This document shows positions 7,984 through 60,470 of a DNA stretch of 64,000 bases, in pieces. Numbering within the stretch: position 1 is the first letter of the stretch; the number at the start of each line of letters is the position of its first letter. A program made the translations under genes and the position numbers. The notes under the pieces are model-generated. The model saw only the letters and a program-made list of their open reading frames with translations. It was not told where the DNA came from and did no database searches. The DNA is from Hexactinellida sp. DTS-2022. Lineage: Eukaryota; Porifera; Hexactinellida. The stretch lies in assembly GCA_028753945.1 (NCBI GenBank), contig JAPNXP010000014.1:4588001-4652000 (forward strand). Reading direction: 5' to 3'.

Positions 7984-10260
7984 ATGAAACTACCAAATAT
8001 GTAAACATCATGAACAACAAAAAATAAAGGTAATAAAACTATTTAAAGAAATACATAAAAAGGAAAGAAACACAAGAGTATATAGATAGCATTAGCATAC
8101 CTAAAGTAATTCCTAAATCAAGATTTAATCACTTTGTCTTGTTTTTTCATTGTCTTCGGGTATATTGTATTTCCATGAGAGCCAAGCCAACAGGAAAAAT
8201 ATATTGTTGATAGCAACTCCAGCCAACAAAAATCCCACAAATGAATACTTCAGAGATTCTGTGTTATACTCCAAACAGGCCCCACGGGTACCACATCCAG
8301 TTTCTTGCCAGAGGATACAATTCAAATCGAAAATGCCACCAACGACTAACGGGCCAGGCAATTGTCCGAATAACCGAACTATCAATGATTGGATTCCTAA
8401 CGCAACAGTACGGTCTTTGTCTGCTACACTTCTCAGAGTTAATTTGATGAATGGAATGTTATTAAAGAACAACAAGACAACGCCAATAAAGAGCAATACA
8501 AGAGCGATGATTATTGTGACAGTACAGAAATCAGAGCATTTCCCATCTGATGCGAGAGATCCGTTGGTGAGACAAGAACATTCTGAATATGTACCGTTTG
8601 GATTGGCCTGCTCGGGACAACCAGCAACACAAGGAGAAAAATACGTCACACCCTCAGAACATATTGGTTGGAAAAAGTTAGACCTGCAGTCACAGCTGGA
8701 AAAGCAACCAACGTTCTGATCACGAATTCTAAAGTTTGTTCTTGTTGTAGAGTTTGCATAGTCAACATTGACCCCAGCGATTCGAGGATATGCACAGGTA
8801 ATCAATAATATTGGAGGGGTTAGTACCTCTAGCAAGCTTAGGATTAGAACCATTAATGCCAACCTCTCAACAGAGATCTTTTTAAGGAAGAATAGAGTAA
8901 TCCCTCCTAAGAATATTCCAATTGAAGCAGCAGGAATGATGCTCCCCCCAATCAAGAAGGAAGCTATACTGGGAGATACAGAAAATTGAACTTCCACATA
9001 TTTAGCCATAAATGCTATTGTACCCCCGACAACAAACGCACCAACGGCAACACCAATCGTAACAAATAGAAAGGTTAGGTTTTTCAGAATTCTGAACACG
9101 TAGAATGGGTACTCCTTGATCAATGTGAGAATTGGTATGTTGTGATCATCCTGGAATGCACCTCCTTGATTCTGTATTGGTTGCTGTTCCTTCCTCAACT
9201 CGTCATACTCTTTAGAGCCTTTGAGACGTCTGGGATAGAGGAAGAACTGTAACGACAATAGAATGCTCAGAACGCCTGTGATCACAAATCCAATCCACCA
9301 AGCACCTACCCACTGAGGGTCTGTGCTAGTCAGTGTAGTTGGTGTAAGTGGATCCACGAAGAAGGATAAGAAGAGCCCACCAAACCCGAATCCTAGCGCT
9401 GGGCCAAAAATTCCTACGGTGTAAAAAACACTGAGATATATTGAAGAATACCTTGGGTGAGTGCTATCATCAATGAACCCTGTACCAACTGTAAATATCG
9501 TGCTAGCCCCACATCCAATTATCATGTTACCGATAACAAAGAGAGGATAAAAATATATGAGCGGAGAACCACAGTCAGGTTGGAACATAGACGTGTTAGT
9601 GCATATCTCCGCTGAAGAAGTAGAATTAAAACTGTATGCACCACTGAAGTATTGAGGAGACGCGAATATCAAACTCCCTACCCCCAATGTGAAGAGAGAT
9701 ACTCCTAACACTCGAGGCTTGTTGCTTCTTCCACCAAAGTAGCTGCTGAATGGAAGAGCCAATATCACTCCCAGTTCGAAAGAGATGACAACGAATGCAG
9801 CGAGTGTACTAGATAGATTGTAACGACGTTCAATGCTGGAGAGTCCAACAGAAATAAATCCTGTAGCGACAGTACCTTCTAGTACAACGAAACAACAGAG
9901 AGAAAATAGAAACATTTTGGGATTGTTGAATATTTGGAACCATTTCGGAGAACATTTGTAGATACCGCATTTCCCATCATAGTACCCAGGTTGTTCTTTT
10001 TCTTCTTTTGTAACTGGACGATCGGCTGTTGGGCCAGCGTTACTTTTAGTGTCCGTTTGACTGGTAGGTGGCACCAGATCAATATCATTCATCCTCAAAT
10101 ACAAATCTGTTGTAACTATTTGTATACAAATTTTCAAAAATCTAGTTTTTATTACATATTAAAAATATATACAATAGTCTTGAGTTTACTAAGAATTGTA
10201 ATAAGTGGGATTACTTTTGATAACAGTAAATATTATTTCTTAATCATAACCAAGGCCGGG
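7984..10260. repeat. Segmental duplication unit A carrying an OATP gene
   Basis: Homology to 34683-36867 starts abruptly at CTATGAAAC (about 7983) and runs through the 3' flank, the whole coding region and the 5' flank. The 5' flank homology resumes at about 37413 in the other copy, after an inserted repeat. The duplication therefore copied gene plus flanks, not an mRNA. Confidence 0.8.
8125..10092 (-). CDS. Organic anion transporting polypeptide (OATP/SLCO family), copy 1
   Basis: Single-exon gene of 655 residues, the usual OATP size. OATPs are plasma-membrane carriers that exchange amphipathic organic anions. Seen: a cytoplasmic N terminus, about 12 hydrophobic segments (first near residues 58-80), the family signature DPQWVGAWWIGF at about 256-270, and a large extracellular loop near 460-520 with a cysteine-rich Kazal-like module (CFSSCDC...CVAGCPEQ...CSCL) before transmembrane segment 10. 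N-x-S/T sites lie in that loop. The ATG at 10092 gives MNDIDL, shared with copy 2; the frame stays open upstream but has no earlier ATG. Copy 2 differs at only about 30 residues, so both look recently duplicated and intact. Substrate cannot be told from sequence. Confidence 0.92.
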   Translation of the reverse strand: MNDIDLVPPTSQTDTKSNAGPTADRPVTKEEKEQPGYYDGKCGIYKCSPKWFQIFNNPKMFLFSLCCFVVLEGTVATGFISVGLSSIERRYNLSSTLAAFVVISFELGVILALPFSSYFGGRSNKPRVLGVSLFTLGVGSLIFASPQYFSGAYSFNSTSSAEICTNTSMFQPDCGSPLIYFYPLFVIGNMIIGCGASTIFTVGTGFIDDSTHPRYSSIYLSVFYTVGIFGPALGFGFGGLFLSFFVDPLTPTTLTSTDPQWVGAWWIGFVITGVLSILLSLQFFLYPRRLKGSKEYDELRKEQQPIQNQGGAFQDDHNIPILTLIKEYPFYVFRILKNLTFLFVTIGVAVGAFVVGGTIAFMAKYVEVQFSVSPSIASFLIGGSIIPAASIGIFLGGITLFFLKKISVERLALMVLILSLLEVLTPPILLITCAYPRIAGVNVDYANSTTRTNFRIRDQNVGCFSSCDCRSNFFQPICSEGVTYFSPCVAGCPEQANPNGTYSECSCLTNGSLASDGKCSDFCTVTIIIALVLLFIGVVLLFFNNIPFIKLTLRSVADKDRTVALGIQSLIVRLFGQLPGPLVVGGIFDLNCILWQETGCGTRGACLEYNTESLKYSFVGFLLAGVAINNIFFLLAWLSWKYNIPEDNEKTRQSD

Positions 10261-23638: not shown

Positions 23639-24880
23639 ATGGCCACCAATCTGCCACCAAATGTGCCACTAAACACATTCGCACAGTTCGATGCTGTTGC
23701 CATAGAAATAGCCCAAACCTTTGACCCTCTTATCGCACAGCTGATCGCGAGGAGGGATGCTCTCCTACTCGAACTGTCCCAGCTCCGAGAGGACTACACC
23801 ATCAAGGAGACCACGCGTAAGGCTGCCATTCAGGAACTGGAACTAACTCGTCAACAGTTGCAGCTGATGAGTCTCAAAGTGAATACGAACATTCCTATTC
23901 ACCAACAGGCCACTGAGCTGTACCAACAGGGCCTAGAGGGTCTGTCGACACCTACCAAACTCCCGTACCCTCTCTTCGACTGTCCGACTCTCCAAACGCT
24001 ACGGAGAGTAATCTCAGGATTCGGGGAGCTGTCAGCTTGTGAGGTACCCGACTATTCCAAAAAAATGGAACCGACACTAACAGCTGGGAAGAAAGGGAAA
24101 GGTGCCAAACAACTCCTTGCAACTGGCCTCTCGATTGATGAAGCAAGCAAGCTAATCTACGTAGCTGATAGTGACAACTCCCGAATACAAGTGGTGTCAT
24201 TTGAAGGGAAGTTCGTAACAAGCTTCGGACAAGGAATACTCAGGGGACCATGGGGCATAGCTGTGACAGACGAACACATATTAGTTACGGACACAACACA
24301 CCACTCTCTGTTCCAGTTCGTTAAGAAAGATCTGAAACTAAAGAACAGAACTGGAACTGAAGGGAGTCAAGAAGGACAGCTGCATAACCCATGCGGTCTC
24401 TCCATCGACACAAATGGAGATGTGTTTGTTGTAGATAGCGGCAATAGGAGAATAGCAAAGTACTCCAAAATGCTTCGATACAAAATGTGTTTCACAACTA
24501 TCCAATTCCACATCCCACAAGATGTGGAACTGACTAAGTATTGTGTCGTGGTGCTGGACTGGAGTCCCAATGGTGTTATCAAGTTATTTTCAAGGAATGG
24601 ATCCCTCCTCAGTTCCTGTATTTCTTTTGGAGAGGGACGGGATTGTTTGGTGAACTACCCTTTCTTCTTCTGTGTGGATCCAGCTGGGAATATCATCATT
24701 AGCGACACTAGCCACCATGCAATAAAGATATTCTCGAAAAGCGGACAGCACATCCATACCATTGGGAAGGAAGGAAACAAAATAGGAGAGTTGATTAGAC
24801 CATTTGGTATTTGCATATCTCAAAAAGGAATTATATTTGTTGTGTCTCAGAATCCTAATTACTCACTACAATGTTTCTAA
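23639..24880 (+). CDS. Coiled-coil NHL-repeat (beta-propeller) protein, RING-less TRIM-NHL-like
   Basis: Single-exon gene of 413 residues. The ATG at 23639 (caaATGG context) is the first in frame. Residues about 15-85 are a helical coiled-coil stretch rich in Leu, Arg, Gln and Glu. From about residue 155 come six NHL-type blades with the repeated pattern P-x-G-hydrophobic then VADSDNSRIQVV, VTDTTHHSLFQF, VVDSGNRRIAKY, VLDWSPNGVIKLF, ISDTSHHAIKIF and the last VVSQNPNYSLQCF. NHL propellers bind protein or RNA. No RING or B-box precedes it, so ubiquitin-ligase activity is not supported. A polyadenylation signal AATAAA is at 24904-24909. Exact function unknown. Confidence 0.88.
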   Translation: MATNLPPNVPLNTFAQFDAVAIEIAQTFDPLIAQLIARRDALLLELSQLREDYTIKETTRKAAIQELELTRQQLQLMSLKVNTNIPIHQQATELYQQGLEGLSTPTKLPYPLFDCPTLQTLRRVISGFGELSACEVPDYSKKMEPTLTAGKKGKGAKQLLATGLSIDEASKLIYVADSDNSRIQVVSFEGKFVTSFGQGILRGPWGIAVTDEHILVTDTTHHSLFQFVKKDLKLKNRTGTEGSQEGQLHNPCGLSIDTNGDVFVVDSGNRRIAKYSKMLRYKMCFTTIQFHIPQDVELTKYCVVVLDWSPNGVIKLFSRNGSLLSSCISFGEGRDCLVNYPFFFCVDPAGNIIISDTSHHAIKIFSKSGQHIHTIGKEGNKIGELIRPFGICISQKGIIFVVSQNPNYSLQCF

Positions 24881-24926
24881 TTTATGTTTGTTTGAAGTTT
24901 GCTAATAAAATAGTATATACCTATTA

Positions 24927-25183
24927 CAGTAGAAGCTCGCAAAACGGGGCACCTTGGCGTTTCTGAAATATGCCCCACTTTGGGAGAGTGCCCCGGTTTG
25001 CGAGCTTATCTACAAATCTAAATATTATTACAAATATGAAAACAAAGTAACAAATCAATGAAAAAGAGTGCAAAGGTTTGCGAGCTTTGCCCCGGTTCGA
25101 GAGCGGAATTTATATATGATAAAACCAAATTCGGAAGTAACTGCCCCGGTTTGGGAGGTGCCCCGGTTTGCGAGCATCTACTG
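24927..25183. mobile_element. 257-bp Tc1/pogo-like MITE
   Basis: Ends CAGTAGAAGCTCGCAAAAC and GTTTGCGAGCATCTACTG flanked by TA (24925-24926, 25184-25185). Repeated GCCCCGGTTTGCGAGC motifs are inside. Confidence 0.88.
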
Positions 25184-25421
25184 TAGTATATAGATTCTTC
25201 CTATATAGCTATACTCGCGTAATTGCAAGTCGCATTTTGCATGAAATTTGCTTGCAAATATGCAAACTTGCAATTAGAGGAACAGAATTAACATTAATGC
25301 TCGCTTGGGGACTGAAATAATAGAGCAATTGCAATTACACGAACATCACGAAACTATCAGACCAATTTTTAATTTTTGTATTATTCTTTCTATAGCTAGT
25401 ATCTGTATAGCAAATCGCTTT

Positions 25422-25616
25422 ATGAGCGTTTGGGAACGATTTGGTGTAGTGAGATCCTGGGCAGTTTGCTTTCTACTTGGATTCGCGATTGAATTATTTA
25501 TGATAAAAGTCCGAATCGGGAAAGAAACATTTTACGAGACGGCTTTACGTAAACAGACAGAAAGAAGGAAAAATAGAATTATCCGCCAATACAACATACT
25601 ATTTCCCAAGAACTAA
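25422..25616 (+). CDS. UQCC5: UQCC5 (SMIM4) homologue, complex III assembly microprotein
   Basis: 64-residue protein with one membrane segment (about residues 13-30). The core RFGVVR, then FLLGFAIELFMIKVRIGKET and FYETALRKQTERR, matches human SMIM4/UQCC5, whose conserved part reads RFGIYR...EWIMIKVRVGQETFYD...RKASERQ. In human cells this inner-membrane mitochondrial microprotein acts in early cytochrome b and complex III biogenesis with UQCC6. The ATG at 25422 gives a length like the human protein (70). The frame is open upstream to about 25278 without an ATG. The stop TAA (25614-25616) is followed after 2 nt by the UQCC6 ATG. A small upstream frame (ATG 25297, stop 25318-25320) precedes it. 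Confidence 0.88.
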   Translation: MSVWERFGVVRSWAVCFLLGFAIELFMIKVRIGKETFYETALRKQTERRKNRIIRQYNILFPKN

Positions 25617-25618
25617 TA

Positions 25619-25867
25619 ATGCCATTTGGAATGTCAAAAAGTAGATACTTTATACTGATAGCTGGTGGAATTATATCAGCGTTATTTGGCGGCTCAATAG
25701 TGAATAGAATATACAGACCTAATATGGTACTGAATTTGGAACCTGAAATAATTGAGATGGAAAGAGAAATCGAAAAATTCAAACGTGAAAGTTCAATCAA
25801 AACAATTTTAGATCGAATTAACCCTCGTCTGGCTAGGAATGTAAAATTGAAACTGAAAGTTAATTGA
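25619..25867 (+). CDS. UQCC6: UQCC6 (BRAWNIN, DUF4516) homologue, complex III assembly microprotein
   Basis: 82-residue protein. The N terminus MPFGMSKSRYF, a hydrophobic segment ending in GG, and SIVNRIYRP match the BRAWNIN/C12orf73 pattern (MPAG...Y...AGAEVVHRYYRPDL). A charged helix follows (EIIEMEREIEKFKRE). BRAWNIN is an inner-membrane microprotein needed for complex III assembly. The ATG is 2 nt after the UQCC5 stop, in another frame. There is no room for a promoter between them. A splice-acceptor-like ACTATTTCCCAAG ends at 25610, inside the last UQCC5 codons, so a separately spliced UQCC6 mRNA is possible. No AATAAA seen directly after; a MITE starts 50 bp downstream. Confidence 0.85.
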   Translation: MPFGMSKSRYFILIAGGIISALFGGSIVNRIYRPNMVLNLEPEIIEMEREIEKFKRESSIKTILDRINPRLARNVKLKLKVN

Positions 25868-25917
25868 ATTTCAATTGAAAGTGAAAGTGGGGTTTTTCTA
25901 TTTATACCTTTTACCCC

Positions 25918-26117
25918 CAGGCACGTAGCTACGGGGGGGCGAGGGGGGGCAACTGCCCCCCCAAAAGTACTTCTCGCCCCCCCTCCCAAGAGAATTTAGG
26001 AAGTGTTCGTTATAGTAAATAGAGTGATTCGTCCCCCCTTGCCCCCCCGACTCCCTGCACTTGCCCCCCCAACATAAAATTTGCCCCCCTGAATTACATA
26101 CTCTAGCTACGTGCCTG
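25918..26117. mobile_element. 200-bp hAT-like MITE with G/C runs
   Basis: Ends CAGGCACGTAGCTACGGG and CTAGCTACGTGCCTG; perfect 8-bp duplication TTTACCCC at 25910-25917 and 26118-26125. Lies just after UQCC6. Confidence 0.92.
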
Positions 26118-26334
26118 TTTACCCCAAGCCAGCCGAGGGTTAAAAAGGATTAATTTTATACTATTTACTTCTATTATTAATAATTAAATTGTATAATACA
26201 GTCAACTCCCGTTATAACGAAGTGCTCGGAACCGTAGTTTCATTTCTTTAAACCGGAGTTCGTTATAAGCAGAATTCGTTATAACCGGAGTTCGTTATAA
26301 CCGGAGTAAATGAATAGATTAGAGCAGGCCTTCC

Positions 26335-26758
26335 CAAATAGCGGCGTGCGCGCCATTTGTGGCGCGCGGAACGGAAGCGCCCCGGGATTCCCCCCCCACC
26401 AGAAATTTGGAAAGTATGATGTTAACATTAAGATGTAGCAGCAGTTAGAATAGCTTTCCTAGTGTAAACTTAGTACATAACAATAATAATACTCCACAAC
26501 TCTATTCTGTAAAACTCTATAGCACTCTATTGTTTCTGGCTTCCAGAGGCGAAGCCCCTGGACCCGACTGGGGGCCTACAACGTGGATCCACAAACATTC
26601 CCCCCCAGAAACAAATTCTCTATGAAACCCTGGAAAGGGAAAATTTATTGGAGTTGTAAGTCAAAATTCATTATTTACGAGAAGTTCAAGGTAGTGGCGC
26701 TTCGAACATTCCCATTAAAGGTATATGGCGCTCCATCCAATATAATTGGGAAGCCCTG
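26335..26758. mobile_element. 424-bp hAT-like MITE
   Basis: Ends CAGGCCTTCCCAA and TTGGGAAGCCCTG; perfect 8-bp duplication GATTAGAG at 26327-26334 and 26759-26766. Confidence 0.92.
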
Positions 26759-31440: not shown

Positions 31441-33970
31441 TGATACAGCCCTACTACGGGCTGCTTCCTCAAAGGTATCACATACGGTTTCATCAGAGAG
31501 AGTGCGGATTTCCTGGTAATTGGTACAGCCCGTGACATGATTGAGAACCATTCTTAAGTAATAACGGTCATCATCATCTGGATGAGCTGAGTAGACACGG
31601 CCTATCACGGTGCCATGCCCTTTAACCCTTTCTTTCCATTCACGGTCAGTCTTATGACTCTTATCCCACACAAATTTATTGGGAAAATGTATGTAAGTAA
31701 CATCCCTTGCACTCGCAAATTTTCGATTAGCAACAACCCACCCAGTGAGAGTAGCGTATCTCTGCCTACTAAAGACATTTTCTATAGAAGCACTTTCAGC
31801 AAATACTACAGGCTGCTGATATTCTAGGTACAAAGTTAGTCTCATCACGTGTAGCAAATTGGCATGGAGATCAAATGCAAAGAGACGATAGCAAGCTTCA
31901 GTAGCAGACACGTATCGAACTTCTAGATAGTTTACAATCTCATCTACGTTCTTAGTCTAACTACTTTTACCACTGTCGGCAGTGTGGAACTCTACTATGA
32001 CTCTATCATGACCCTTGTACACGTATTTGTATAGATATTTAACTGCACTAACTGACTGCAAATCTCAATATTAATATGTGCATTGTATTTCAGAAGTAAA
32101 TAAGGATTGTATGGAACAACCGAGCGATTGTCTAATTCAAAACCGTTTACTTGTACAGTTCGTTTGTTATCACGACGTTGGTATATAGGATAGCTATCGT
32201 TCCCTGTTGTAGTACATTCAGCAATAGCTTTTGGATATGTTTTCGTACATTACCATCGCGTATACAAGGAACGTTTCTCCTTATAGGGGTCACGGACTAT
32301 GCATCAAACAACGCTTAACAATATCGTGAAGTCTGGGATTATGGATTGGGTCGGGAATTTCCGCGCATACAATTTTGACATAGTCTGATGATTCTCTAGG
32401 TTTATCGCTCTGACATAAAATCACCAAAATGTGTGTATGGGGGAATCCCCGTTTTTAGAATTATACTGTATACACATGTGCCAACGGTTTACCTAATACG
32501 TGTTTGTTACAGATATCATTAAGGAATTCTTTCAATTTAATCTTAAACACTCTAACAATTAATCAGGACGATCGGTCGCTTTTTAGATTCCTATAAGTGC
32601 AGAGGATATGTCCTCCCATTTAGGATTGCATGTAAATGTAATGAGTAAGTCTGGCTTACCATATTTCCTGACTATAGACATACTGTCATGGTATAACTCA
32701 AACATTTGTCGAGGAGTCGAGGTACCCGTGAAGGAAGAAGGCAATATTACTTACGTCCCAAATTTCTAGGATTAGAATCAGCAAGGCCACTGTATAGATC
32801 TACTTTAATCTTTAGCTGATTGCACTTAATATAGTTCATTCGATGTTGCTCCACTTTAGTAAACATATCCACCACATCAGACGGGAAGAGTAATATTCCA
32901 ATACAGTCACATCTCCTTTCCCTCTGTTGTGAGGGATTTTCAGATGCCAGCAATTATCTCCTGAGGGGAACAGAAGTACATAATGCAAAGAATCATCGCA
33001 CAATTGCACTCGGTTATACGCTGTAAACCCCGCTGTACGTGCATGTAGCACTATGTCTCAGCTGGCTACGCCTTCTGAATACCCGTATTCGGGCTTGATA
33101 ACGGCTCTTCGGGGGCAGTAGGGGCGTTATAGCGTCTGGGATCTGGGACACCATCAGCTCGGATAATCATCCTAACTTCAGTTCCTCCTTGCGCTCTCAT
33201 TAGCTCTATTCCGTGTCTGAAGTACTGCACTTAAGGATTGGCCTCATGCATTAGGGCAGGGGTCGGCAATTATGTTTCACTATTACCCCATTTCAGTGCT
33301 CAGCACATCACTGTTACCCCGAATCCAGAAACTAATTTGATAAACACAAAGAACAAGCTGTTTCATTTATAGACGAGACAACCGGAGTAGAACTACTAAA
33401 TTTAATTATGTTCATAGCATGTATAATGTCTAAAGTGCACTTGCTACCCTAAATAATATCAGCAAACTCTGGCTGTATTTTTACAGTTCACATCTTATAT
33501 CGCTTTCCGGAAGGTCTCGTTACCCCCAGAAAACCTGAAATTACCCCGATGGGGTAATTTACCCCTAATTTCCGACCACTGCATTAGGGCATGTTGTGCT
33601 TTCAGCTCTGGTAGAGATGCCTCTCCCAGATGCCGTAGGCGGTTTTCTATCTCGCCCTCAGCTGTCCCATCATGGATAGATATCTGGGCAAAGAGGGAGC
33701 CTCTCCCTCTCTCGGTGTCAGCTGTCCGATATAATGGTGTGTAACTCCGTGGATACGGAAAGTGTACACTCCACGTCTGGCGTTAGCAAGTTTACTCCCA
33801 GCAAAGCAAAGGCCAGAGCTGAGTTGTAGACTCGAATCTGATCTCTGAACTCTCTCCCTCGCTTGTCAGCAGCAGTCAACAGTTGCAGCAGCATCTCAGG
33901 CGGTGATGCTAAAGGGGTAGAACCACTTTCCCCTATCCACAACAGAGGGGGAACTTGTTGCATTTCTTAG
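31410..33970 (-). pseudogene. Helitron Rep/helicase gene, N-terminal and Rep part, decayed
   Basis: The minus strand carries the Helitron-like N domain in order: IRVYNSALAFALLGVN with PDVECTLSV (33963-33718), VQLCDDSLHYVLLFPSG with DVTVLEYYSSRLM (33051-32860), then TTGNDSYPIYQRRDNKRTV and NPYLLLKYNAHINIEIC (about 32230-32060), a KGHDRVIVEFHTADSG segment (about 32020-31960) and MSATEACYRLF (31911) continuing to 31410. These are characteristic of rolling-circle Helitron transposases. Several frame changes and stops separate the pieces, the zinc-finger 5' end and the helicase 3' half are missing, and a hAT MITE sits inside. It is inactive. It could be kin to the autonomous partner of family A, but no shared ends were seen. 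Confidence 0.85.
33257..33581. mobile_element. 325-bp hAT-like MITE inside the Helitron gene
   Basis: Ends CAGGGGTCGGCAA and TTTCCGACCACTG; perfect 8-bp duplication CATTAGGG at 33249-33256 and 33582-33589, so it entered the Rep reading frame. Confidence 0.9.
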
Positions 33971-34682: not shown

Positions 34683-36867
34683 TATGAAACGAGCAAATAT
34701 GTAAACAATATGAACAACAAAAAATAAAGTAATAATAAGTATTTAAAGAAATACATAAAAAGGAAAGAAACACAGAGTATATAGATAGCATTCGCATATC
34801 TAAAGTAATTCCTAAATCAATATCTAATCACTTTGATTTGTTTTTTCATTGCCTTCGGGTATATTGCTGTATTTCCATGAGAGCCAAGCCAACAGGAAAA
34901 ATATATTGTTGATAGCAACTCCAGCCAACAAAAATCCCACAAATGAATACTTCAGAGATTCTGTGTTATACTCCAAACAGGCCCCACGGGTACCACATCC
35001 AGTTTCTTGCCAGAGGATACAATTCAGATCGAAAATTCCACCAACTACTAACGGGCCAGGCAATTGTCCGAATACTCGGACTATCAATGATTGGATTCCT
35101 AACGCAACAGTACGGTCTTTGTCTGCTACACTTCTCAGAGTTAGTTTGAGGAATGGAATGTTATTCAAGAACAACAAGACAACGCCAATAAAGAGCAATG
35201 AAAGAGCGATTATTATTGTGACTGTACAAAAATCAGAGCATTTCCCATCTGATGCTAGAGATCCGTTGGTGAGACAAGAACATTCTGAATATGTACCGTT
35301 TGGATTGGCCTGCTCGGGACAACCAGCAACACAAGGAGAAAAATACGTCACACCCTCAGAACATATTGGTTGGAAAAAGTTAGACCTGCAGTCACAACTG
35401 GAAAAGCAACCAACATTCTGATCACGAATTCTAAAGTTTGTTCTTGTTGTAGAGTTTGCATAGTCAACATTGACCCCAGCGATTTGAGGATATGCACAGG
35501 TAATCAATAATATTGGAGGGGTTAGTACCTCTAGCAAGCTTAGGATTAGAACCATTAATGCCAACCTTTCAACAGAGATCTTTTTAAGGAAGAATAGAGT
35601 AATCCCTCCCAAGAATATTCCAATTGAAGCTGCAGGAATGATGCTCCCCCCAATCAAGAAGGAAGCTATGCTGGGGGACACAGAAAATTGAACTTGGAAA
35701 TATTTAGCAATAAATGCTATTGTACCCCCGACAACAAACGCACCAACGGCAACACCAATCGTAACAAATAGAAAGGTTAGGTTTTTCAGGATCCTGAACA
35801 CGTAGAATGGGTACTCCTTGATCAATGTGAGAATCGGTATGTTGTGATCATCCTGGAATGCACCTCCTTGATTCTGTATTGGTTGCTGTTCCTTCCTCAA
35901 CTCGTCATACTCCTTAGAGCCTTTGAGACGTCTGGGATAGAGGAAGAACTGAAACGACAATAGAATGCTCAGAACGCCTATGATCACGAATCCAATCCAC
36001 CAAGCACCTACCCACTGAGGGTCTGTGCTAGTCAGTGTAGTTGGTGTCAGTGGATCTACGAAGAAAGATAAGAAGAGCCCACCAAACCCGAATCCTACCG
36101 CAGGACCAACAATAGATACGATGGATAAAACACTGAGGTATATGGAAGAATACCTTGGGTTAGTGCTATCATCAATGAACCCAATACCGACAGTAAAGAG
36201 CGTGCTAGCCCCACTTCCAATTATCATGTTACCGATAATGAAGAGAGGGTAGAAATATATGAGCGATGAACCACAGTCTGGTTGGAACATAGACGTGTTA
36301 GTGCATATCTCCGTTGAAGAAGTAGAATTAAAACTGTATGCACCACTAAAGTATTGAGGAGACGCGAATATCAAACTCCCTACCCCCAATGCGAAGAAAG
36401 ATATTCCTAACACTCGAGGTTTGTGGCTTCTTCCACCAAAGTAGCTGCTGAATGGAAGAGTCAATATCACTCCCAGTTCGAAAGAGATGACAACGAATGC
36501 AGCGAGTGTACTAGATAGGTTGTAACGACGTTCAATGCTGGAGAGTCCAACAGAAATAAATCCTGTAGCGACAGAACCTTCTAGTACAACGAAACAACAG
36601 AGAGAAAATAGAAACATTTTGGGATTGTTGAATATTTGGAACCATTTCGGAGAACATTTGTAGATACCGCATTTGCCATCATAGTACCCAGGTTGTTCTT
36701 TTTCTTCTTTTATTACTGAAGGACGATCGGGTGTTGGGTCAGCGTTACTTTTAGTGTCCGTTTGACTGGTAGGTGGTACCAGATCAATATCATTCATCCT
36801 CAAATACAAATCTGTTGTTAATATTTAAATACAAATTTTCAAAAATAGAAATTTGATTACGTTAATA
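34683..36867. repeat. Segmental duplication unit B carrying an OATP gene
   Basis: Matches 7984-10170 including 3' and 5' flanks. The 5' flank homology resumes at about 37413-37480 (AAGAATTGTAATAAGTGGG), so the 36868-37412 piece is a later insertion. Confidence 0.8.
34824..36797 (-). CDS. Organic anion transporting polypeptide (OATP/SLCO family), copy 2
   Basis: Single-exon gene of 657 residues, intact, close to 95% the same as copy 1 by eye. It keeps the OATP signature DPQWVGAWWIGF, about 12 membrane segments and the Kazal-like cysteine loop (CFSSCDC to CSCL). The start ATG at 36797 gives MNDIDL. Differences cluster in a few membrane segments (for example LSIVSIVGPAVGFGFG here, FYTVGIFGPALGFGFG in copy 1), which could alter substrate handling. 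The C terminus is one residue longer (KYSNIPEGNEK). Its upstream region holds a family B insertion about 70 bp before the ATG, so its promoter differs from copy 1. Confidence 0.92.
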   Translation of the reverse strand: MNDIDLVPPTSQTDTKSNADPTPDRPSVIKEEKEQPGYYDGKCGIYKCSPKWFQIFNNPKMFLFSLCCFVVLEGSVATGFISVGLSSIERRYNLSSTLAAFVVISFELGVILTLPFSSYFGGRSHKPRVLGISFFALGVGSLIFASPQYFSGAYSFNSTSSTEICTNTSMFQPDCGSSLIYFYPLFIIGNMIIGSGASTLFTVGIGFIDDSTNPRYSSIYLSVLSIVSIVGPAVGFGFGGLFLSFFVDPLTPTTLTSTDPQWVGAWWIGFVIIGVLSILLSFQFFLYPRRLKGSKEYDELRKEQQPIQNQGGAFQDDHNIPILTLIKEYPFYVFRILKNLTFLFVTIGVAVGAFVVGGTIAFIAKYFQVQFSVSPSIASFLIGGSIIPAASIGIFLGGITLFFLKKISVERLALMVLILSLLEVLTPPILLITCAYPQIAGVNVDYANSTTRTNFRIRDQNVGCFSSCDCRSNFFQPICSEGVTYFSPCVAGCPEQANPNGTYSECSCLTNGSLASDGKCSDFCTVTIIIALSLLFIGVVLLFLNNIPFLKLTLRSVADKDRTVALGIQSLIVRVFGQLPGPLVVGGIFDLNCILWQETGCGTRGACLEYNTESLKYSFVGFLLAGVAINNIFFLLAWLSWKYSNIPEGNEKTNQSD

Positions 36868-48232: not shown

Positions 48233-48607
48233 TGAACTCCCGTTATAACGAAGTCGGATATAACGAAATAACCGCTACTAACAAACATGGGCGCCGAAAC
48301 TCTCAAACGCTAGGGGGGGTGTGACGTAATATTCAAATGTGAAAGTTCAGAAAACAATGCGTATGGGGATAAAATCAATGTTGGATGGGCTTAATTGTAA
48401 AGATATATATATCATCAACTGAAATGTATACAAACTCAAAAAGGAAACAATTATTTTCTATTTTTCTTCCCTGACTTCTCCTCGGCCAGGGGGGGTGACA
48501 CCCTCCCTGACCCCCCCACTTTCGGCGCCTATGCTAACAAATATCCGGATATAACGAAATAACCGCTAATAACAAATATCCGGATATAACGAAGGAATTT
48601 ACAGGTC
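48233..48607. mobile_element. Left part of a Tc1/mariner-like MITE, other end moved to about 52243
   Basis: Starts CAGTGAACTCCCGTTATAAC beside TA and holds GGATATAACGAAATAACCGC repeats. Its other end, GTAAACTCTCGTTATACGAAG, lies at about 52246-52270 in direct rather than inverted order, as expected if the DNA between was inverted. Contains the MITE at 48286-48533. Confidence 0.7.
48286..48533. mobile_element. 248-bp hAT-like MITE
   Basis: Ends CATGGGCGCCGAAAC and CTTTCGGCGCCTATG; perfect 8-bp duplication CTAACAAA at 48278-48285 and 48534-48541. Confidence 0.92.
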
Positions 48608-48655
48608 TGTGACGATACAGACAGTATCTAGAGCTGTGGCTGCTAGTACTGATAT
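48608..48655. mobile_element. Detached terminal repeat of the ribozyme-bearing element
   Basis: TGTGACGATACAGACAGTAT through GCTAGTACTGATAT is the same 48 bases as 52276-52323. It stops exactly at the hAT-like copy at 48656. See the inversion finding. Confidence 0.8.
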
Positions 48656-49561
48656 CAGGCACGTCGCCAGGATTTTTCATCTAGGGGGGGCGGCGAAATT
48701 ATCAGGGGGGGCATGCCCCCCCTCCCCCCCCCCCCCTCACAAAATTCGTATCAACGAGAGTCGATCATAATATGAAATTATCAAGTTTCTATCTTATATT
48801 AAATCTAAATGGTTTGTTTTTTGTTTGTTGTTTGTTTGTTCGGAATTGATTAAGAAACAGGGTAAGAGCTATAGACTTGAAATTTGGCAGGGAGGTGGGT
48901 AACTACGTATCTAGAAACAAGTTATAATATCTAAGAAAAATATTCACATCTTCAATCTCAAGAGGTAACAAAACCTTTAGCCAATTAAATTCGAGCGTGG
49001 CACAGTATGGATTAGCAGCTAGCATTCAATTAGTATAAATTGATTTAGTGTCTCTAACATTTGTTAAGCGTGCATTATAGAATGCCAATCTGAAACTGCA
49101 ATTTAATTGGGCGAGAGAAAAATAATAAATCCAATCAATTATTTGTAATTTACATATTTTAAAGGGTCGTGGCCGCCTACTTCTAACGACTATATATGGA
49201 GTAATTAAGTAAGCTGATTCCAAATATGATGTTGATACAACCCATGTTTATATATTTGTTGTTTAGATGTAGACGTTTTAAGGAATTTACAAACGTTACT
49301 TCTGTTATTTGTTGGTTGGGATATATGAGGCACCAGAAGGGTGCTTTCTGAAGCCGCGCAGCGAAAGCAAGCGAAGCGGGCTTGTATACATAATAATAAT
49401 AATAATAATAATAATACACCTACAACGTTATTTGGCAATAATTTAGCAGGGGGGTATGTCCCGGGGCACGAAATTTTACCAGGGGGGGCATTGCCCCGGG
49501 GCGAGGATTTCTACCAGGGGGGGCATTGCCCCCCTATGCCCCCCCCGTGGCGACGTCCCTG
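48656..49561. mobile_element. 906-bp hAT-like element, left copy of an inverted pair
   Basis: Starts CAGGCACGTCGCCAGG and ends CCGTGGCGACGTCCCTG, with G/C runs inside each end and an (AAT)n tract. Flanks are ACTGATAT (48648-48655) on the left and TCACCAAG (49562-49569) on the right, so its own duplication is not matched. The partner at 52585-53490 carries the complements. No transposase. Confidence 0.92.
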
Positions 49562-51516
49562 TCACCAAGTGGTCAAACGATCTCCAAATTTATCATCAAT
49601 GACTCCGTTGATTATTTTTCAGTTCCCAGTGAAAAAGAGGAAGAACAATCGGCGTTTTATAACGGAAAATGTGGAATTTACAAATGTTCCCCGAAATGGC
49701 TCCAAATATTCAATAGCCCTAAAATTTTTCTTTTTTCTCTTTCTTGTTTCATTGTTCTTCAAGGATCAGTAGGTACAGGATTTATTTCTGTTGGACTCTC
49801 CAGCATTGAACGTCGCTACAACCTATCTAGTACACTCGCTGCATTCGCTTACACCTCTTTCGAACTGGGCGTTATACTGACTCTTCCATTCAGCAGCTAC
49901 TTTGGTGGAAGAAGCCACAAACCTCGAGTATTAGGAATATCTCTCTTCACATTGGGGGTAGGGAGTTTGATATTCGCGTCACCTCAATACTTCAGTGGTG
50001 CATACAGTTTTAATTCTACTTCTTCAACGGAGATATGCACTAACACGTCTATGTTCCAACCTGACTGTGGATCACCGCTCATATATTTCTATCCTCTCTT
50101 CATTATCGGTAACATGATAATTGGATGTGGGGCTAGCACTCTTTATACTGTGGGTGTTGGGTTCATTGATGATAGCACTCACCCAAGGTATTCTTCCTTA
50201 TACCTCAGTGTTTTTTACATTGTGACTGTTCTTGGCCCAGCGCTAGGATTCGCTTTTGGTGGCCTCTTCTTATCCTTCTTCGTAGATCCACTGCACCAAC
50301 TACACTGACTAGCACAGACCCTCAGTGGGTAGGTGCTTGGTGGCTTGGATTCGTGATCACAGGCGTTCTGAGCATTCTATTGTCGCTACAGTTCTTCCTC
50401 TATCCCAGACGTCTCAAAGGCTCTAATGAGTATGACGAGTTGAGGAAGGAACAGCAACCAATACAGAATCAAGGAGGTGCATTCCAGGATGATCACAACA
50501 TACCGATTCTCACATTGATCAAGGAGTACCCATTCTACGTGTTCAGAATTCTGAAAAACCTAACCTTTATTTTCGTAACTATGGGAATTACCGCTGGTGC
50601 GTTTACCCTTACAGGAATAGTATCATTTCTCCCTAAATACTTAGAAAATCAATACTCAATTACACCCAGCATAGCTTCTTACATGATTGGTGGAATCAGC
50701 ATTCCCGCTGGTTGTATTGGAATATTCTTAGGAGGATTTACTCTATTCTTCTTTAAAAAGCTATCAGTTGAAAAATTAGCATTAATGGTTTTAGTTTTAA
50801 GTTTTCTAGAATTTCTAACACCTCCAATATTATTGATTAGCTGTGCCAATCCTCGAATCGCTGGGGTCAATGTTGACTATGCAAACTCTACAGCAAAAAC
50901 AAATTTTAGAGTTCGTGATCAGAATGTTAGTTGCTTTTCCAGCTGTGACTGCAGGTCTAACTTTTTCCAACCAATATGTTCAGAGGGTGTGACGTATTTT
51001 TCTTCTTGTGTTGCTGGTTGTCCCGAGCAGGCCAATCCAAACGGTACCTATTCAGAATGTTCTTGTCTCACCAACGGTTCTCTCGCATCAGATGGGAAAT
51101 GCTCTGATTTCTGTACTACGACAACTATTATCGTTGGTTTACTGCTGTTCTTTGGAATACTCATGTTGCTCTATAATAACATTCCATTCCTCAAACTAAC
51201 TTTGAGATGTGTAGCAGACAAAGACCGTACTGTTGCTTTAGGAATCCAATCGTTTATATATCGAATATTCGGACAAATGCCTGGTCCGTTAGTCCTTGGG
51301 GGAATTTTCGATTTGAATTGTATTCTCTGGCAAGAAACTGGATGTGGTACTCGTGGGGCTTGTTTGGAGTATAACACAGAAACTCTGAGGTATTCATTTG
51401 TAGGGTTTTGGTTTTTCGGGGTTACTCTTAGCAACATTTTCGTCTTTTTGGCTTGGATCTCTTGGAAATACAGAAAGATACCAGGCGAAAATGAAAATAA
51501 TAATGGGGATGATTAA
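49562..51516 (+). pseudogene. OATP copy 3, decapitated by hAT insertion and inversion, plus one frameshift
   Basis: Clearly the same family as copies 1 and 2 (signature DPQWVGAWWLGF, Kazal-like CFSSCDC loop, 12 membrane segments) but more diverged, so an older duplicate. The first coding bases here are TCACCAAGT, inside codons 8-10. There is no ATG upstream because the left hAT-like copy begins there. The true start codon lies at 53517-53519 on the other strand. A one-base net loss near 50293 (GATCCACTGCACC against GATCCACTTACACC in copy 1) shifts the frame until about 50310-50353, after which the frame is open to the stop at 51516. It cannot make a full transporter now. Confidence 0.9.
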
Positions 51517-52070: not shown

Positions 52071-52275
52071 TATGTGCATTGTTAATTACATCGGCATTAA
52101 GAACTTTGTTGTCACTGTATGCAGTCTGTCATACTAACAAGGATTTATAGGTTTTCTATGCTAAGTAGTGAGGTTATGACATCACATGGTAACTTTTCCA
52201 TAATACCATTACAAATTGACTCGATTAATTTTTAAAATATGTAGTAAACTCTCGTTATACGAAGTGATTGGGACC

Positions 52276-52584
52276 TGTGACGATACAGACAGTATCTAGA
52301 GCTGTGGCTGCTAGTACTGATATCGTCTACTCTACAGGGGTGCACACTGGGATATGTGTGTAGCGGCAGTACGGTGTAGTGTTAGGAAGACAATGTGGCA
52401 CGGCAGTACGGTAGTAGCTAACCAATAGCGTGGTCGAGGGTTACCCTCCTGATGAGTCCTTGTGATAGGACGAAACCACACATACAATATGTTATATCCT
52501 GTAAGGTGGAGGCTGGCTCATGGACGTAAGGTCCGGAGGCTAAGCTCCTATCTTACAATATAATTATTCCACGACGATATCAGT
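52276..52584. mobile_element. TIR element containing a hammerhead ribozyme
   Basis: Left TIR 52276-52327 begins TGTGACGATACAGACAGTAT and ends ACTGATATCGTC. The body has GGCAGTACGGT repeats (52364, 52402) and the hammerhead. The inner edge of the right TIR, GACGATATCAGT, is at 52573-52584, and the rest is at 48608-48655 because a hAT-like copy entered the TIR and the segment was then inverted. The outermost flanks read GGTC on both sides, a possible 4-bp duplication. No coding sequence. Confidence 0.75.
52430..52479 (+). ncRNA. Hammerhead ribozyme, type III
   Basis: All conserved core parts are in order: stem III strand GUGG, cleavage triplet GUC (cut predicted after C52435), stem I GAGGG-UUA-CCCUC (52436-52448), CUGAUGA (52449-52455), stem II GUCC...GGAC with an 8-nt loop (52456-52471), GAAA (52472-52475), stem III strand CCAC (52476-52479). 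The four stem III pairs plus the U-A closing pair match. Hammerheads self-cleave RNA at the triplet. In animals they occur in retroelements and small repeats. Stem III is short, so activity may need a dimer or be weak. No assay is available here. Confidence 0.8.
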
Positions 52585-53490
52585 CAGGGACGTCGCCACG
52601 GGGGGGGCATAGGGGGGCAATGCCCCCCCTGGTAGAAATCCTCGCCCCGGGGCAATGCCCCCCCTGGTAAAATTTCGTGCCCCGGGACATACCCCCCTGC
52701 TAAATTATTGCCAAATAACGTTGTAGGTGTATTATTATTATTATTATTATTATTATGTATACAAGCCCGCTTCGCTTGCTTTCGCTGCGCGGCTTCAGAA
52801 AGCACCCTTCTGGTGCCTCATATATCCCAACCAACAAATAACAGAAGTAACGTTTGTAAATTCCTTAAAACGTCTACATCTAAACAACAAATATATAAAC
52901 ATGGGTTGTATCAACATCATATTTGGAATCAGCTTACTTAATTACTCCATATATAGTCGTTAGAAGTAGGCGGCCACGACCCTTTAAAATATGTAAATTA
53001 CAAATAATTGATTGGATTTATTATTTTTCTCTCGCCCAATTAAATTGCAGTTTCAGATTGGCATTCTATAATGCACGCTTAACAAATGTTAGAGACACTA
53101 AATCAATTTATACTAATTGAATGCTAGCTGCTAATCCATACTGTGCCACGCTCGAATTTAATTGGCTAAAGGTTTTGTTACCTCTTGAGATTGAAGATGT
53201 GAATATTTTTCTTAGATATTATAACTTGTTTCTAGATACGTAGTTACCCACCTCCCTGCCAAATTTCAAGTCTATAGCTCTTACCCTGTTTCTTAATCAA
53301 TTCCGAACAAACAAACAACAAACAAAAAACAAACCATTTAGATTTAATATAAGATAGAAACTTGATAATTTCATATTATGATCGACTCTCGTTGATACGA
53401 ATTTTGTGAGGGGGGGGGGGGGAGGGGGGGCATGCCCCCCCTGATAATTTCGCCGCTCCCCCTAGATGAAAAATCCTGGCGACGTGCCTG
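52585..53490. mobile_element. 906-bp hAT-like element, right copy of the inverted pair
   Basis: Exact length match to 48656-49561 and nearly identical in reverse complement (one visible substitution near its right end). Flanks ATATCAGT (52577-52584) and CTTGGTGA (53491-53498) are the complements of the flanks of the left copy, in crossed order. Confidence 0.92.
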
Positions 53491-55294: not shown

Positions 55295-55954
55295 GTCTTC
55301 ACGCATGTGTATATTTTGATAGAATTTTATGTAGAACTTTGATCGAATTTTCTAATGTCGAACTTTGATCGAATGATGAAAAGTGCCAATTTCGATCAAA
55401 GTTCTTCCAAAATGTCATGAGTCGAACTTTGATTGAAGATATGTCGAACTTTGATATAAAAAAGAGACCTTTGATCGAAAAGGAGAACTTTGATAGAAAA
55501 GGAGAACTTTGCTAGAAAAAAGAGACCTTTGATCGAAAAGGAGAACTTTGATAGAAAGATGAGAACTATGATCGAAAATCTGACACTTCAACAAAAGTAA
55601 GAACTTTGATCGAAAAGGTACAACTTTGATAGAAAATTTGATTGAAAAGGTAGAACTTTGATAGAAAATTTGATCGAAAAGTGAGAACTTTGATGGAATT
55701 TAATCTTTTACAGAAAAATACAGTATTCAGTGAGATTTGTAATCTGTAAACTTTTTGGGAGGTCAAACACCTAATGTAAATGTTAGCTTCATCTGATGGA
55801 GATTGCTATTTTCCTACCTGATATGTCTCCCAGATAGTATATTAATCATTTTAAAAAAAGGATTGTCAACCTTTCTTTTAGTCTTTGTGATTCCGAACCG
55901 ATAATTGTAATTTTACTTGTTATACACGAATTCGAACCTATTATTTTAGAAATC

Positions 55955-57689
55955 ATGGAGTATAAAATAATTGAAGGCAAGAAGTTGGGCTCTCGAAATT
56001 TTGAATGCGAAGGTTACCGGTATACGCTATCTAGTCAACCGAAACATCCATCTATTTGAGATGTACACTTTGGAGGTGTAGAGAAAGATTTTGTCACGGT
56101 ACTGGACGAATCGATCGTCTTTTAAATCTATTATATATTAAACAGATACATAATCACACTGAAGCTGCATACAAGTCGAATATCATTGCTCTAAATAACA
56201 GACTCAAGCGCGCAGCTGAAACTTCAACAGACAACCTTCGACATGTTTTTGACGATGTAACCTCTACAGATCAGGCTTGTGCTTTAGTAACATATAAAGA
56301 CGTTCGCAATACGATGGTAAAACGGAGACGGTTGGAATTACCAGGGAATCCAAAGACAGCTGAAGAATTTGAAAACATGATCATGCAAACCCGTTTTTCA
56401 AAGATTTTCGGTCGATGATCATTCTAACAGATGGATTCTCTGAAATATTTTGGTCAGATCGCATGTTTGAATATCTGAAAACATGTGACCTCATCAATTA
56501 TGATGGAACATTCTATGTAGTGCCCAAATTGTTCTACCAGTTGTTTACCATATTCATTCAGGAGAGTCATCATGCCATACCAGCCATACATGTCTTGATG
56601 TCTAAAAAGAATGAACTTCTTTACGAGGCTGTGCTGCAGAAAATTGCTAATATGATACCCCATTTTAAGCCAAAATTAGCCATAGGTGACTTTGAGAAAG
56701 TATCCCGAAATTCCTTTCGACCATCTTCAGTACAATAGAAGTTTCGGGCTGTCTATTCCATTATACCCAAGCAATTTGGAAGAAAGTGAAAAAGTTTCAG
56801 CTTTCATCTGCGTATACTCAAAATTCACATCTTAACAAGTGGATTAGGTCAATAATGGCTCTTCCCATGATACCAAAAGAAGAAATAGCTTCAGTTTATC
56901 AATTTCTAGCGGATTCACCACCTCCTGAACTCACCTCTATTGAAATGAAACTTTTTCGAAAACTTCGTTCTTACATAAAAAAGGAATGGATTGTGAGAAA
57001 TGATATGTCAGTGTACAATTCATTGCAAAAAACTAACAATTGTTGTGAAGTTTATCACAGAAGTTTGAAGTCACTTATTCGTGTGAAAAAGCCGAACATA
57101 TGGGCGTTTATAGAGTGTTTCGAAAATAATCTGATAAAGTATGACTTAGACTTTCAGAGATTGAAAAATGGGTTGGAAATCGGTGGACGATCGAAAAAGG
57201 ATGTCGATAGCGAGAGACAAAGGCTGATCTGCAGAGATAAGCTTCAGAATAGAGACTATTCGATACTTGAATATCTGAACAAAATTTCGGATACTATTGG
57301 TAGCCCCCAATATTATGGTTACTCTCAAAGTACGCTTTCAGACGAAAGTTGCAATGATGACTCGAATCATTCTGATGATGATATTGTGTCCAATCCCTGT
57401 GTGATATGTTTGATGAGTAGAGCGGCTACATTCGTGATGTTACCATGTGGACATGCACAGATATGCGGGAACTGTGAAGGAAATTTAATGAAGGCGATAG
57501 ATGTCCTCAAGGGCGTAGCCAGCCTAAGCCAGGCCAAAATCTAGGGGGGGCAAATGTACAACTTGCGAGCGTAGCGAGCTACTTAAAGGAGGTCTGGGTC
57601 TGAAAATGGCTGAGCTAGGGGGGGGGGGAAACTGCCCCCCCTGACCCCCCCGCCCCACGCCCATGGATGTCCTACTTGCCGATCAATAA
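55955..57689 (+). pseudogene. MULE transposase with FLYWCH zinc finger and C-terminal partial RING
   Basis: From the ATG at 55955: a FLYWCH domain (FECEGYRYTL, then LRCTLWRCRERFCHG and HNHTEAAY), then the MULE DDE core (LINYDGTFYVVPKLFYQLF, AIPAIHVLM, PKLAIGDFEKV), then an FHYTQAIW-type region, then a long C part ending in NPCVICL...LPCGHAQICGNC, a RING-like C2HC2 core without the last zinc ligands. Frame changes are needed near 56050, 56415 and 56710, so this copy is dead. A hAT MITE at 57508 sits near the end; past its target repeat the frame closes at 57687-57689. The DDE domain cuts and joins DNA; a RING tail is unusual. Confidence 0.85.
57508..57665. mobile_element. 158-bp hAT-like MITE in the MULE gene
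   Basis: Ends CAAGGGCGTAGCCAGC and GCCCCACGCCCATG; perfect 8-bp duplication GATGTCCT at 57500-57507 and 57666-57673. Carries G/C runs. Confidence 0.9.
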
Positions 57690-58730
57690 TATCAACCAAA
57701 CTACAGATTTCCAGTAATTAGAAACATATAGGATTCGTTAGGAATCACTCAGCTTATTTACTCTCCGATCTCCACAAATGGAACTGCAAGCTAACACTAT
57801 CATTATAGGTATTATATAGCCATATGTTAGTCCTTTAACATATAGTATATGTCATAACACATTCGTTATATTATTTAGGGATCAAAATAAGACATCATTG
57901 GTAATTGCACATCATCGAACATTTTTTCTTAATAGCAGGCAATATGGTTAGACTTGTCTATAACAGCCACATAAGGGGGTAAAGGGACTAGGTAAATAAT
58001 TTCTATATACTGTTGACCGCTTTGAGAGTCCGAAATTTATACAGTGGTGGTTGTTAAGAATGTTTAACTGTATAGTGTATACCTAGTACCTTGTACTAAC
58101 AAAAGGGGTCATTTCTTAGTATAAGGCACAATAAATTAACATGTCATTTTTCATAAATAGAAGAACTTTTAACCATTATTCAGATAGTTTGTGACTCAAT
58201 TTATCACGTATTTCAAATATTTACCGTTTTATTAAAGACCCAAGTGAACTTACCTCGGAGTTCACACATTTACAAAGTCAACGTCAAAACTCCAACCTTA
58301 TTCAATATTTCATTTTTCAGTTAGTGGTCACATTTTCGATCAAATTTTCTATAAAAGTTCTCACTTTTCGATCAAATTTTCTATCAAAGTTCTATCTTTT
58401 CGATCAAATTTTCTATCAAAGTTCTACCTTTTCGATCAAAGTTCTTACTTTTGTTGAAGTGTCAGATTTTCGATCATAGTTCTCATCTTTCTATCAAAGT
58501 TCTCATTTTCGATCAAAGGTCTCTTTTTTCTAGCAAATTTCTCCTTTTCGATCAAAGGTCTCTTTTTTATATCAAAGTTCGACATATCTTCGATCAAAGT
58601 TCGACTCAGGACATTTTGGAAGAACTTTGATCGAATTGGCACTTTTCATCATTCGATCAAAGTTTGACATCAGAAAATTCGATCAAAGTTCTACATAAAA
58701 TTCTATCAAAATATACACATGCGTCTTCAC

Positions 58731-60415: not shown

Positions 60416-60470
60416 AGGTCGTTTCGTTCCATCTCAGGGACTCATCAGAAGGGTAACCCTCGACCATAAT
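60416..60470 (-). ncRNA. Degenerate hammerhead-like motif
   Basis: On the minus strand GGUC-GAGGG-UUA-CCCUU-CUGAUGA-GUCCC...GGAAC-GAAAC repeats the order of the 52430 ribozyme, including the same stem I hairpin. Stem II has one mismatch and stem III pairs poorly (only G-C next to the U-A), so activity is doubtful. It shows that the motif belongs to a repeat family. Confidence 0.55.

Follow-up and report, generated by a model that had tools for sequence, protein, structure and literature searches.

Two small open reading frames, ORF1 and ORF2, lie on one strand of the hexactinellid DNA and are separated by only 2 nt, exactly where an earlier sequence-only reading had placed them. ORF1 is a homologue of UQCC5 (SMIM4, Sloth1), and ORF2 very probably one of UQCC6 (BRAWNIN, Sloth2; C12orf73 in humans). 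The features of the pair and of its flanks are collected in Table 1, in which positions are counted along the window, that is, the whole 64-kb stretch of DNA that was analysed.

Table 1. Coordinates of the two reading frames and of the features that adjoin them (positions in the window)
Feature	Position	Strand	Remark
AUG-free stretch directly 5′ of ORF1, probable 5′ leader	25298..25421 (124 bases)	+	nearest upstream AUG at 25297
Possible 3′ splice site (pyrimidine tract, AG), tentative	25371..25395	+	ends 26 nt before ORF1 AUG
ORF1, UQCC5/SMIM4/Sloth1 homologue, 64 aa	25422..25616	+	stop TAA
Intercistronic gap TA, two bases	25617..25618	+	ORF2 in frame +2 relative to ORF1
ORF2, probable UQCC6/BRAWNIN/Sloth2 homologue, 82 aa	25619..25867	+	stop TGA
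Outer inverted-repeat element, probable piggyBac-type MITE	25818..26143	.	overlaps ORF2 3′ end
Nested inner element, probable hAT-type MITE (class inferred)	25918..26117	.	inside 25818-26143
ATTAAA, candidate polyadenylation signal 3′ of ORF2	26183..26188	+	

In a Pfam profile search, ORF1 matched PF15114 (UPF0640) with an E value of 7.9e-11 and 42.1 bits, above the cut-off of 27, and the match covers positions 17-62 of the 67 in the profile, leaving the first 16 unmatched. A local alignment with human SMIM4 contains 23 identical columns out of 48, and its score was equalled in 0 of 2000 shuffles. Judged by these comparisons, chance is excluded as the source of the family match, which bears out the earlier identification of the first frame as SMIM4. 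The predicted protein also has a hydrophobic stretch of membrane-spanning length, the best 19-residue segment of which (mean hydropathy 1.97) begins at residue 14. No second copy of ORF1 was found in the window by tblastn, where the best other match had an E value of 0.23, and a comparison of ORF1 with solved structures gave no match. Scans for relatives of ORF1 returned 12 pattern stretches in viral contigs and 110 in genome contigs, with 0 confirmed in either set, the outcome expected for a eukaryotic gene.

Residues 1-39 of ORF2 align with positions 1-39 of the 46 in PF14990 (DUF4516), at an E value of 2.8e-5 and 24.1 bits, 3 bits below the curated cut-off of 27. Its local alignment with human C12orf73 is identical in 15 of 52 columns, and no shuffle among 2000 equalled the score. 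A chance origin of this match appears very unlikely, and less likely still because the alignment begins at residue 1, immediately after the known partner ORF1; the naming of the second frame as BRAWNIN is thus supported by a profile match slightly under the cut-off and by the shuffles. We take PF15114 to represent the UQCC5/SMIM4 family and PF14990 the UQCC6/BRAWNIN (C12orf73) family, and, as a control on this correspondence, the human SMIM4 and C12orf73 sequences scored 116.8 and 79.3 bits against PF15114 and PF14990, respectively. Up to an E value of 10, no other Pfam family was matched by ORF1 or ORF2. The N-terminal part of ORF2 is hydrophobic and could span a membrane (best 19-residue mean hydropathy 2.05, from residue 10). 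Its best other tblastn match in the window had an E value of 3.8, giving no second copy, and four matches to solved structures were obtained, the best with an E value of 0.21; no complex III assembly factor was named among them.

The AUG of ORF1 has U at −3 and A at +4, and that of ORF2 has A at −3 and C at +4, G at +4 being absent from both. The polarity is that of a weaker ORF1 start and a stronger ORF2 start, as published for the fly gene discussed below, on a scale of strength that may differ for this species. Only one further AUG precedes ORF2, at 25500, in frame with ORF1 and with U at −3. Out-of-frame AUGs number 0 in ORF1, against 1.15 expected, and 1 in ORF2; in four longer frames of the window that served as controls, they number 13, 22, 20, and 15, against recoded means of 8.5, 19.0, 16.9, and 14.0. 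Since 4674 of 20000 synonymous recodings of ORF1 were also without any, the depletion is not significant and was dropped as evidence for leaky scanning; the absence is required by such a mechanism, yet it proves nothing.

Upstream of the putative leader, eight AUGs begin within 24881-25297, so that an unspliced transcript starting far upstream would carry upstream ORFs. The tentative acceptor within the leader has 14 pyrimidines in 18 positions and is equalled or exceeded in score by 38 of 657 comparable YAG sites (plus strand, without AG in the preceding 18 bases); no GTRAGT donor was seen in 24881-25421. An NHL-repeat frame ends at 24880, upstream of the pair. On the 3′ side, the candidate polyadenylation signal is the sole AATAAA or ATTAAA in 25422-26400, and neither hexamer occurs inside ORF1 or ORF2. 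A tRNA scan found none.

The 3′ end of ORF2 runs into an inverted-repeat element with 20-bp arms that are 90% complementary and with TTAA at both outer ends, on account of which it is provisionally assigned to the piggyBac type. No other copy carrying the arm pattern with ≤3 mismatches was found in the window (shuffle mean 0.03), and two further blastn matches of the region fall within the nested inner element. The latter ends on either side in CAGGCACGTAGCTA, the two copies being inverted relative to each other, and is flanked by direct 8-base copies of TTTACCCC at 25910 and 26118, an octamer that also occurs at 33558 and 63369. Just upstream of the pair, at 24912-25198, there is a further inverted repeat, whose arms of 43 bp are 84% complementary and which carries repeated GCCCCGGTTTGCGAGC-like units; it is probably another small mobile element.

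The final 50 bases of ORF2, including the stop codon, lie inside the outer element, from which the frame seems to draw its last 15 codons, and the matched family core (residues 1-39) is untouched by it. At 82 aa, ORF2 is longer than its human and fly counterparts (71 aa, PMC10199267, and 61 aa, PMC9681215, as given there). When the element is removed and one TTAA is left, the frame ends at 70 aa, close to the human length, so a basic tail of 15 residues seems to have taken the place of three residues through the insertion. We put at about even the chances that a small TTAA-type transposon landed in the 3′ end of ORF2 and was exonised, replacing the last three residues by the 15-residue basic tail while the bicistronic arrangement was kept. 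If so, a complex III assembly factor that is conserved in its other parts would carry an element-derived basic tail.

The sequence-only reading knew of no description of this pairing, and the idea that the pairing is novel is rejected, as the bicistronic UQCC5-UQCC6 gene of Drosophila was described in 2022 under the name sloth1/sloth2 (CG32736/CG42308). In the account of Bosch et al. (PMC9681215), the fly pair is expressed from one bicistronic transcript with a 5-nt gap, GCAAA, and loss of either peptide is lethal. Luciferase reporters are described there in which translation of the downstream frame goes up when that of sloth1 is impaired and down when the sloth1 start is made better, results that the authors interpreted as leaky scanning, and their evidence suggests that both peptides act within a single complex and contribute to the assembly of complex III. 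The same article describes similar bicistronic architecture in a choanoflagellate (Salpingoeca urceolata), a sea squirt, and a lamprey, such links being termed candidate bicistronic or adjacent transcripts in a figure legend, and places the pair on separate chromosomes in jawed vertebrates (3 and 12 in humans), with the proposal that it became unlinked on the way to this group. Human SMIM4 and C12ORF73 are reported to be mutually dependent, and UQCC1, UQCC2, and newly synthesised cytochrome b are recovered together with them (PMC8719881). Among reviews, one from 2024 restates the bicistronic gene (PMC11475943), and one from 2023 includes both human microproteins, with the words "bicistronic" and "sloth" absent from its main text (PMC10199267).

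Set against the published fly gene, the sponge locus is alike in both families, in gene order, in the tiny gap, and in the succession of a weaker and a stronger start context. The gaps of 2 nt here and 5 nt in the fly also give an equal relative reading frame, a single and weak coincidence. The two differ in the gap itself (TA here, GCAAA in the fly), in the lengths of the products (64 aa versus 79 for the first, 82 aa versus 61 for the second), and in the tail of ORF2, which here apparently comes from a mobile element. The likeness to the choanoflagellate, sea squirt, and lamprey loci concerns bicistronic architecture as described in PMC9681215. Compared with humans, the families are the same and the human products act jointly in early complex III assembly (PMC8719881), but the genes adjoin here and are on separate chromosomes there (PMC9681215). 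The locus adds a genome to those in which this gene arrangement is known; it has the gene order and the relative frame of the fly gene and, like it, almost no gap, which fits an old arrangement kept in several lineages. It is a usable data point on how a eukaryotic two-protein transcript is kept and opens no new question.

Sloth1 and Sloth2 have been proposed to be distant paralogues (Bosch et al., PMC9681215). Pairwise alignment of ORF1 with ORF2 was matched or bettered by 1545 of 2000 shuffles, and that of ORF1 with residues 1-68 of ORF2 by 1307 of 2000. With the human sequences, the corresponding counts were 924 for SMIM4 against C12orf73, 1748 for ORF1 against C12orf73, and 401 for ORF2 against SMIM4, each out of 2000. 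These five pairwise comparisons give no support for paralogy, and a very old paralogy would be compatible with them.

It is likely, in our judgement, that the locus is orthologous to the bicistronic sloth1/sloth2 gene of Drosophila and that leaky scanning on its transcript gives balanced complex III assembly proteins. The direct evidence in this genome consists of the two frames, their families, the gap, and the AUG contexts; what we infer is that the pair is transcribed as one unit, that ORF2 is reached by scanning, and that the proteins have the same role in the sponge. A single mRNA would carry both the UQCC5 (SMIM4) and the UQCC6 (BRAWNIN) frames; some ribosomes would initiate at the weak-context AUG of ORF1, and others would scan past it and reach the AUG of ORF2, a course that the two contexts appear to fit. 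The outcome would be balanced amounts of two small inner-membrane proteins, which may act with UQCC1 and UQCC2 on freshly synthesised cytochrome b at an early step in the assembly of complex III. The suggestion of the sequence-only reading that one transcript would give matched expression agrees with the published fly model.

The same bicistronic mRNA could instead yield ORF2 by termination and reinitiation at the adjoining stop and start codons, for which the distance of just 2 nt between them speaks. In animals, however, ribosomes reinitiate inefficiently after an ORF of 64 codons when almost no spacer follows it. The fly reporters also behaved, as reported, in a way opposite to its prediction, downstream output rising when sloth1 was impaired and falling when its start was improved, and the AUG contexts here suit leaky scanning, so that this route seems improbable. 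Still less probable are two separate mRNAs, arising from a promoter internal to ORF1 or from operon-type trans-splicing before the ORF2 AUG. Trans-spliced operons are present in some animals, and a short run rich in pyrimidines, closing with AAG, can be seen by eye just ahead of the ORF1 stop; against this, there is no space between the ORFs, the polyadenylation hexamers are missing from both, and the fly pair is described as a single transcript (PMC9681215).

It is equally doubtful that the real gene lies elsewhere in the genome and that what is seen here is an inactive copy of it, such as a retrocopy. Two points speak for such a copy, the inverted-repeat elements that crowd its 3′ side and the lack of an intron in the two frames, but both frames are also complete and open, the ORF2 match still begins at profile position 1, and no poly(A) tract was seen by eye 3′ of ORF2.

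The window as a whole is eukaryotic and has the look of animal DNA. Elsewhere in it, a FAD_binding_4 frame and an OTU frame are present. An OATP-type frame at 8125-10155 on the minus strand, in a region extending to 10158, spans the whole OATP profile (PF03137), and two regions that are very similar to it by eye lie at 34824-36824 and 49442-51516, the latter divided between two overlapping frames. Most of this last region is enclosed by a 906-bp inverted repeat (48656-49561 and 52585-53490; 99.9% identical) whose outer ends both bear CAGGCACGTCGCCA; inspection by eye showed no pair of matching 8-base direct flanks, and a 50-bp direct repeat pairs 48607-48656 with 52275-52324. The structure is possibly a transposon with a captured transporter gene, or else an assembly palindrome. 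A Type III hammerhead ribozyme was detected at 52428-52481 on the plus strand (61.1 bits against an Rfam gathering threshold of 48.5), and a 49-bp copy, 88% identical and not among the Rfam matches at that threshold, lies on the minus strand at 60418-60466; type I is described as the hammerhead form frequent in animals (PMC7229834). Finally, 55301-58724 holds a MULE transposase frame that is overlapped by a second frame, which encodes a C3HC4 RING finger (56373-57544); on either side lie inverted repeats of ~400 bp with 92% identity that contain short tandem repeats.
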